The notes below the pieces were generated by a model. The model searched no databases and was not told the DNA's origin. It saw only the letters and a program-made list of their open reading frames with translations. Made by a program: the position numbers and the translations under genes. A stretch of DNA of 64,000 nucleotides from Fistulifera solaris (Eukaryota > Bacillariophyta > Bacillariophyceae > Naviculales > Stauroneidaceae), in assembly GCA_030295235.1 (NCBI GenBank), contig AP026131.1:1-64000 (forward strand), in the 5' to 3' direction. Below, one piece after another: positions 2,392 through 3,166 of the stretch (position 1 is its first letter; every line of letters begins with the position of its first letter).

Positions 2392-3166
2392 ATGCAGGTA
2401 AGTAATTTCGAAAGGGTGCTGATTCTGTTTTGCCTCTTGCTCGTGAGCGACAGGTCATCCATCCAGCATCAGCGCGAAGGATTCTCCTCCGCCCGAGAGC
2501 TGTAAGTGACTCTTACGGTCGGCTTCCTTTCACGTCTCACCTTTTTTCATTCAGATTTTTGTCAAAACCTTGACTGGAAAAACTATTACGCTCGATGTCG
2601 AGCCGTCGGACACGATTGATAATGTCAAGACCAAGATTCAAGACAAGGAAGGTATTCCTCCGGACCAGCAACGTCTCATTTTTGCCGGAAAGCAGTTGGA
2701 GGATGGACGCACTTTGAGCGATTACAATATTCAAAAGGAAAGTACTTTGCATCTTGTCTTGCGATTGCGCGGTGGCCACTGCCAGGTCCCTTGTGGCATT
2801 TTTGATGATCCGGCTATCGTCGCTGAACTCAAATTGCAGGCTTCGACGATCCGCAAGGCGATGGTGCAAGCTAACGAATTGCATGCGTCAGCGGGCGGAA
2901 ATTTGCAGAATATGAATCAGATGATTCGCTGGATCAACACGAAAGAAGAGCACGCCAGCAAAATCATCACGACAGTGGGCGAGTATTGTTTGTGTCAGCG
3001 TGTCAAAACGGAGATTTTCGAGAACGATCACGACTACGTTGAAGCCTTACGAGCTCATCATGCGGTCATGCAGGCGGCAATGAAGTCGAAGCAGAGTGTT
3101 GATGTGGCAGTTGCAGATGCCTTAGATGCGGCTTTGGAACTCATGTCGAAGATGTACACTAAGTGA
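2392..3166 (+). CDS. sodN: Ubiquitin-nickel superoxide dismutase fusion
   Basis: Exons 2392-2397 and 2555-3166 give 205 aa. The first exon encodes only Met-Gln, then GTAAGT...CAG, then IFVKTLTGK. Residues 1-76 are ubiquitin ending in LRLRGG, with conservative changes from the human protein at 16, 24 and 28. From residue 77 comes HCQVPCGIF, the nickel hook of Ni-SOD (His1, Cys2, Cys6), followed by a helical domain; the mature enzyme would be 129 aa against about 117 in Streptomyces. Ni-SOD converts superoxide to O2 and H2O2, and the free amine of His1 is a nickel ligand. Cleavage after Gly-Gly by a deubiquitinase would expose exactly that residue, replacing the SodX-type protease bacteria use. 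Position 9 is Phe instead of the usual Tyr. An in-frame ATG at 2239 would add 51 aa with a hydrophobic stretch; I prefer the MQ start because it is the canonical ubiquitin start. Confidence 0.93.

Follow-up and report, generated by a model that had tools for sequence, protein, structure and literature searches.

A gene at positions 2,392 to 3,166 on the forward strand of the window (the whole 64,000-nucleotide stretch of Fistulifera solaris DNA analysed here, with which contig C9 begins in a surveyed genome of 51.7 Mb and 61 contigs) encodes ubiquitin joined directly to a nickel superoxide dismutase (Ni-SOD). The anatomy of the junction and its conservation suggest, with a probability that we put at roughly 0.88, that ubiquitin serves as a pro-peptide that is cleaved off, in place of SodX-type maturation, with the cut predicted at His77. 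The arrangement is already described in many algae and the mechanism is already proposed, for diatoms too. Added here are the counts of homologue junctions, the diverged leaders that end in GG directly before His, a telomere-adjacent copy with very low dN/dS, the reading of seven relatives that lack the nickel hook, and an in-frame, signal-peptide-like intron in two sister copies on contigs C19 and C20.

The spliced product, obtained by reading the sequence and re-translating it, has 205 amino acids, with ubiquitin (residues 1-76) followed by Ni-SOD (residues 77-205) and zero linker residues, such that LRLRGG abuts HCQVPCG. The features are as follows:

1..306, contig start: telomeric (CCCTAA)n repeats (sequence read)
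2229..3911, forward strand: block common to the end of C19 (87.0%) and, from 2354, to the end of C20 (83.1%); a subtelomeric duplicate carrying the gene
2392..2397, forward strand: exon 1, ATG (2392-2394) and CAG (2395-2397), encoding Met1 and Gln2 of ubiquitin (sequence read)
2398..2554, forward strand: predicted intron of 157 bp, GTAAGT...TTCAG
2555..3166, forward strand: exon 2, residues 3-205 and stop codon TGA at 3164-3166 (sequence read, re-translation)
2555..2776, forward strand: ubiquitin residues 3-76 with the LRLRGG end, Gly75-Gly76 at 2771-2776 (Pfam PF00240)
2777..2803, forward strand: nickel hook HCQVPCGIF, with predicted cleavage immediately 5' of His77 (sequence read, homologues)
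2777..3163, forward strand: Ni-SOD domain of 129 aa, a predicted helical bundle with four predicted helices (Pfam PF09055)

This gene structure and its coordinates are confirmed. A sequence-only reading had placed an intron after the sixth nucleotide of the open reading frame, followed by the rest of ubiquitin and then by LRLRGG joined to HCQVPCG, and both the sequence and Pfam agree with it. We infer the intron from its GT-AG ends, its position shared with the C19 and C20 copies, and the uninterrupted MQIFVKT of homologues, some of them transcriptome entries. Pfam assigns residues 3-74 to ubiquitin (PF00240, E 5.1e-32) and residues 77-204 to Sod_Ni (PF09055, E 4.3e-29; 102.1 bits against a cut-off of 25), and the nickel ligands His1, Cys2 and Cys6 of the hook are present as H77, C78 and C82. 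A structure model of the protein displays a ubiquitin fold, then the junction, then four helices, and residues 75-82 (GGHCQVPC) are the sole stretch of at least three residues with pLDDT below 50. The profile match to the solved Ni-SOD 1q0d is weak (E 0.26, profile positions 5-47 only), and the SOD part had no match at E 1e-3 in a single-sequence search of the PDB. Structure searches with two models gave ubiquitin-type entries and no Ni-SOD among the 50 matches listed for each, so that they bear on the ubiquitin fold and not on the SOD bundle, and the whole-fusion profile found ubiquitin-type chains in the best 60 of 432 PDB matches.

The junction and the ubiquitin leader

The SOD part used as a query recovered 1030 homologues (E<=1e-3), so the fusion is not a chance arrangement. 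It should be noted that the figures below refer to the best 120 of these 1030, which are nearest to the query and therefore lean toward the same architecture. The hook motif HCxxPCG is present in 116 of these 120 and absent in four. GG stands immediately before the hook His in 115 of the 116 hook-bearing homologues, 109 of them with the full LRLRGG. Only P0108 departs from this: its 26-residue leader is unrelated and arginine-rich, lies directly before HCQVPCG, and is perhaps an organelle presequence. Position 9 of the hook (2801-2803 in the window) is Phe in all 116 hook-bearing homologues among the best 120. Tyr of the strict bacterial hook HCXXPCXXY is thus replaced by Phe, and for this reason the gene is filed under PF09055 and ubiquitin-NiSOD rather than under the strict bacterial hook.

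Ten leaders are less than 90% identical to the window ubiquitin in an ungapped comparison, and nine of these, all except P0108, retain the GG end directly before His. Three of the nine are full-length, namely P0022 (32% identity, possibly understated by the ungapped comparison), P0042 (61%) and P0054 (86%), and the remaining six are shorter, perhaps through truncation or faulty gene calls. This preservation of the junction where ubiquitin itself has drifted is expected of a leader that acts as a cleavable pro-peptide.

The ubiquitin protein of the fusion is identical (100%) to 11 other ubiquitin places in the genome, polyubiquitin included; the three fusion copies score 99% in that search, since intron sequence is read as residue 1. 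At the DNA level, identity to the other ubiquitin genes is 78-80% among those listed, with the protein the same, which makes gene conversion an unlikely cause of the protein identity. Because the 76 residues are those of polyubiquitin, a cut after Gly76 would free ordinary ubiquitin, and the earlier proposal of one free ubiquitin per SOD gains from this, as the released part would be the species' ordinary ubiquitin. The genome also encodes USP-type deubiquitinases (58 exon-level matches to PF00443).

We infer the cleavage, nickel binding, activity and cytosolic location of the product as follows. The ubiquitin-NiSOD precursor would be made in the diatom cytosol, and ordinary deubiquitinases would cut it after Gly76, as they do polyubiquitin and ubiquitin-ribosomal protein fusions. 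The cut would free the amine of His77, which would become His1 of the mature enzyme, leaving the HCQVPC hook able to bind nickel, and the ubiquitin pool would gain one normal molecule per cut. In this way ubiquitin would do what a short pro-peptide and SodX together do in many bacteria. The sequence-only reading had likewise cast ubiquitin as the pro-peptide and deubiquitinases as the maturase, a proposal supported by the anatomy, the comparison of homologues and the PF00443 genes. Points that count against it are the Phe at hook position 9, the weak match to 1q0d, the hook-less paralogues that retain GG, the eukaryotic Ni-SODs that lack ubiquitin, and the lean of the best 120 homologues toward one architecture. 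If the proposal holds, the fusion illustrates how a metalloenzyme of bacteria that depends on a defined N-terminus could be adopted by a eukaryote without its special protease, by using ubiquitin processing already at hand, and it offers a naturally occurring case in which to test ubiquitin in a pro-peptide role.

It is also conceivable, though on balance unlikely, that the fusion serves mainly folding, yield or ubiquitin supply, as has been argued for ubiquitin-ribosomal protein fusions, and that its exact position at the hook simply follows from fusing anything to the N-terminus. Such a role would suit a ubiquitin part that equals the polyubiquitin protein and whose residues 3-76 show a dN of 0 both between C9 and C20 and between C9 and C19, and a 2021 review (PMC8122580), in the portions available, states that it is unknown what the NiSOD fusion signifies. 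Supply alone, however, does not require that nine of the ten drifted leaders hold GG directly before His. Moreover, any Met-initiated Ni-SOD needs some means of freeing His1.

Relatives without the hook

Hook-less relatives in the same genome provide a contrast case, in which the scaffold appears to outlive the active site. The Sod_Ni family search gave nine matches in the genome and a search with the hook-less protein from C3 gave fourteen, several of which are pieces of one gene; seven hook-less loci were read, with a further place on C46 left aside. These comprise a cluster on C45 (G000:C45:267719-278069; L009, L015), a single copy on C3 (L010) and a locus on C4. Two have open frames (C3:2101881-2102495 and C45:274242-274856), and the others (C45:267719, 270801, 273081 and 277524, and C4:2034708) have stops, frame breaks or partial matches. 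The altered starts are of two types. C45:274242, 273081 and 277524 retain GG followed by ART or LRG in place of HC, demonstrating that a ubiquitin-type leader ending in GG can outlast the hook. C3, C45:270801 and C45:267719 have lost GG and the cysteines, and have in common R-[HR]-[HN]-R-[DG]-x-V-P-x-G. At C4:2034708 the match begins past the hook start and the second cysteine is absent.

Other features of these loci include an additional ubiquitin-like stretch upstream of C3 and C45:267719, a GT intron following codon 2 of C45:273081 and 270801 (read by eye), and a reverse-transcriptase-like remnant with an FYADD motif (by eye) lying between hook-less copies on the minus strand of L009 at ~7700-7450. 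Elsewhere in the genome, long open frames at G000:C27:44582-47020 (1450 aa) and C29:32144-34357 (1189 aa) contain several diverged ubiquitin-like repeats. A related ORF of this genome is 100% identical to FisN_31Hu012 of Fistulifera solaris over the 137 residues compared, and silicon transporters are encoded as well, which fits this diatom or a strain very close to it.

With the two open hook-less proteins as queries, a protein collection yielded P0121 (the protein itself), P0122 at 51% identity and P0123 at 99%, and as this search requires shared 5-residue words, the distribution may be wider. P0122 has the same altered start as C45:273081. Against the Sod_Ni cut-off of 25 bits, P0121 (28.8) and P0123 (36.8) pass and P0122 (23.0) falls just under, and the structure model of P0121 retains the four helices after the ubiquitin fold. 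Rough estimates of dN and dS are 0.351 and 1.017 for C45:274242 vs 273081, 0.484 and 1.418 for C45:274242 vs 277524, 0.523 and 1.631 for C3 vs C45:267719, and 0.554 and 0.831 for C45:273081 vs 277524. These values do no more than suggest constraint once the hook was lost, since dS is near saturation, and the signal is weak for the last pair. The hook-less copies look like putative non-nickel descendants, many of them decayed. No prior report of hook loss in NiSOD was found in open-licence papers, as judged by listing.

A further idea connects these paralogues with the exposed N-terminus. The Arg/N-degron pathway treats N-terminal His as a type-1 destabilising residue, so that the fusion could be regarded as a ubiquitin-His reporter of natural origin, with nickel as the ligand that would capture the His1 amine. 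It is conceivable, although we consider it distinctly improbable, that exposed His1 is an N-degron shielded by nickel, such that the loaded enzyme would be spared, the empty enzyme destroyed and SOD abundance would track nickel; the hook-less paralogues would then have escaped such regulation to form a non-enzymatic family of ubiquitin-like and helical-bundle proteins. Six UBR-box matches, candidates for N-recognins, lie above the cut-off in the genome (four strong and two weak). No prior report linking nickel superoxide dismutase to the N-end rule was found in open-licence papers, and in the available portions of PMC8122580 the term appears once, in a reference title. If the idea is true, ubiquitin fusion would set the SOD level by nickel supply, and it raises the question of whether metal loading competes with N-degron recognition.

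Subtelomeric copies and their introns

The window gene starts ~2.1 kb inward of the telomeric repeats, and window positions 300-1060 are subtelomeric sequence common to many other contig ends. Hook-bearing ubiquitin-NiSOD genes occur at three places, on C9, C20 and C19, and in each case telomeric repeats lie ~1 to 5 kb away. The ends of C19 and C20 are 83.5% identical over 3.7 kb, and telomeric repeats terminate both stretches. C10 has sequence matching the region downstream of the C9 gene at 90-91%, yet has no Ni-SOD match. Given this and the block identities listed above, the C9 gene is most simply regarded as a copy moved from the end of C19, with the direction of the move presumed.

Comparison among the copies points to strong constraint on the gene, since dN/dS is very low both for C9 vs C20 (dN 0.006, dS 0.362, dN/dS ~0.017; Nei-Gojobori, 203 codons) and for C9 vs C19 (dN 0.003, dS 0.157, dN/dS ~0.02; Nei-Gojobori, the 151 codons before a frameshift in the SOD part of the C19 copy as assembled). 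The genome encodes other SODs too, with four Sod_Fe_N and four Sod_Cu exon-level matches.

The introns of the C19 and C20 copies invite a different view of the N-terminus. They lie at the same position as that of the window gene, are 153 bp long, in frame and open, and give a hydrophobic, signal-peptide-like N-terminal reading. Under dual targeting, intron retention would add this extension and direct the protein to a secretory or plastid route, and splicing would leave it cytosolic. Equally open and hydrophobic sequences made up only 0.66% (C19) and 0.16% (C20) of dinucleotide shuffles, although this test was chosen once the pattern was known, T-rich introns give hydrophobic readings, and the C19 and C20 copies are not independent. 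The JGI homologues P0010 and P0057 have similar extensions, MQV followed by hydrophobic residues, but these may be gene-caller read-through, and the Arg before IFVKT in P0057 is at odds with an AG-ending intron in that phase. The window intron is 4 bp longer, at 157 bp, and contains an in-frame stop, and intron substitutions are distributed 9/9/15 by frame position, indicating little constraint. On this evidence dual targeting seems very improbable. The idea of a functionless window copy, a subtelomeric duplicate in decay, might draw on its telomere-adjacent position, its apparent origin from the C19 end and the frameshifted C19 sister, but it is hardly credible against the open frame of this copy and the very low dN/dS in both comparisons.

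Comparison with known systems

Two well-known arrangements resemble the fusion. Ubiquitin-S27a and ubiquitin-L40 contain a single N-terminal ubiquitin that is released after Gly76, whereas here ubiquitin precedes a metalloenzyme in which residue 1 itself binds the metal. In bacterial Ni-SOD (SodN) the pro-peptide is processed by SodX, whereas here the pro-peptide would be ubiquitin, presumably cut by general proteases, and position 9 is Phe rather than Tyr. The metal ligands and the need of a free His1 amine are the same in both; the available part of PMC12933891 describes nickel bound by the His1 amine of the hook, and Tyr at position 9 of bacterial enzymes.

Among eukaryotes, the available text of Sibbald et al. 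2019 (PMC6332867) describes the same fusion as the window gene in B. natans, G. theta and another 114 eukaryotes, nearly all of them phototrophic, and acknowledges previous reports that include Ostreococcus; in its main text the words 'Fistulifera' and 'hook' have 0 occurrences each. A ubiquitin-NiSOD transcript from Symbiodinium appears in the accessible part of PMC5328969. According to the available sections of Groussman et al. 2015 (PMC4460010), 45 diatom species, 85% of those queried, have NiSOD transcripts, mostly as ubiquitin fusions, and nine diatom species transcribe NiSOD without ubiquitin. As other eukaryotic Ni-SODs without ubiquitin are also described in PMC6332867, ubiquitin is not the sole route, which counts against a need for it. 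The literature searched yielded no experiment on the cut, the mature N-terminus or the nickel activity of ubiquitin-NiSOD, and the eukaryotic enzyme is described as not yet fully characterised in PMC4460010.

The closest counterpart is the diatom UBQ-NiSOD of that 2015 paper, which in the sections available has the same architecture and junction as the window gene, marks the same cleavage site, and proposes that ubiquitin-specific proteases activate the hook at once. With the diatom fusion and the same activation idea in print since then, novelty by lineage, as originally claimed for the window gene, fails. The present gene differs in being a genomic copy with an intron, a telomeric position and sister copies, and in having Phe in the hook, where PMC4460010 gives a motif with Tyr at its end.
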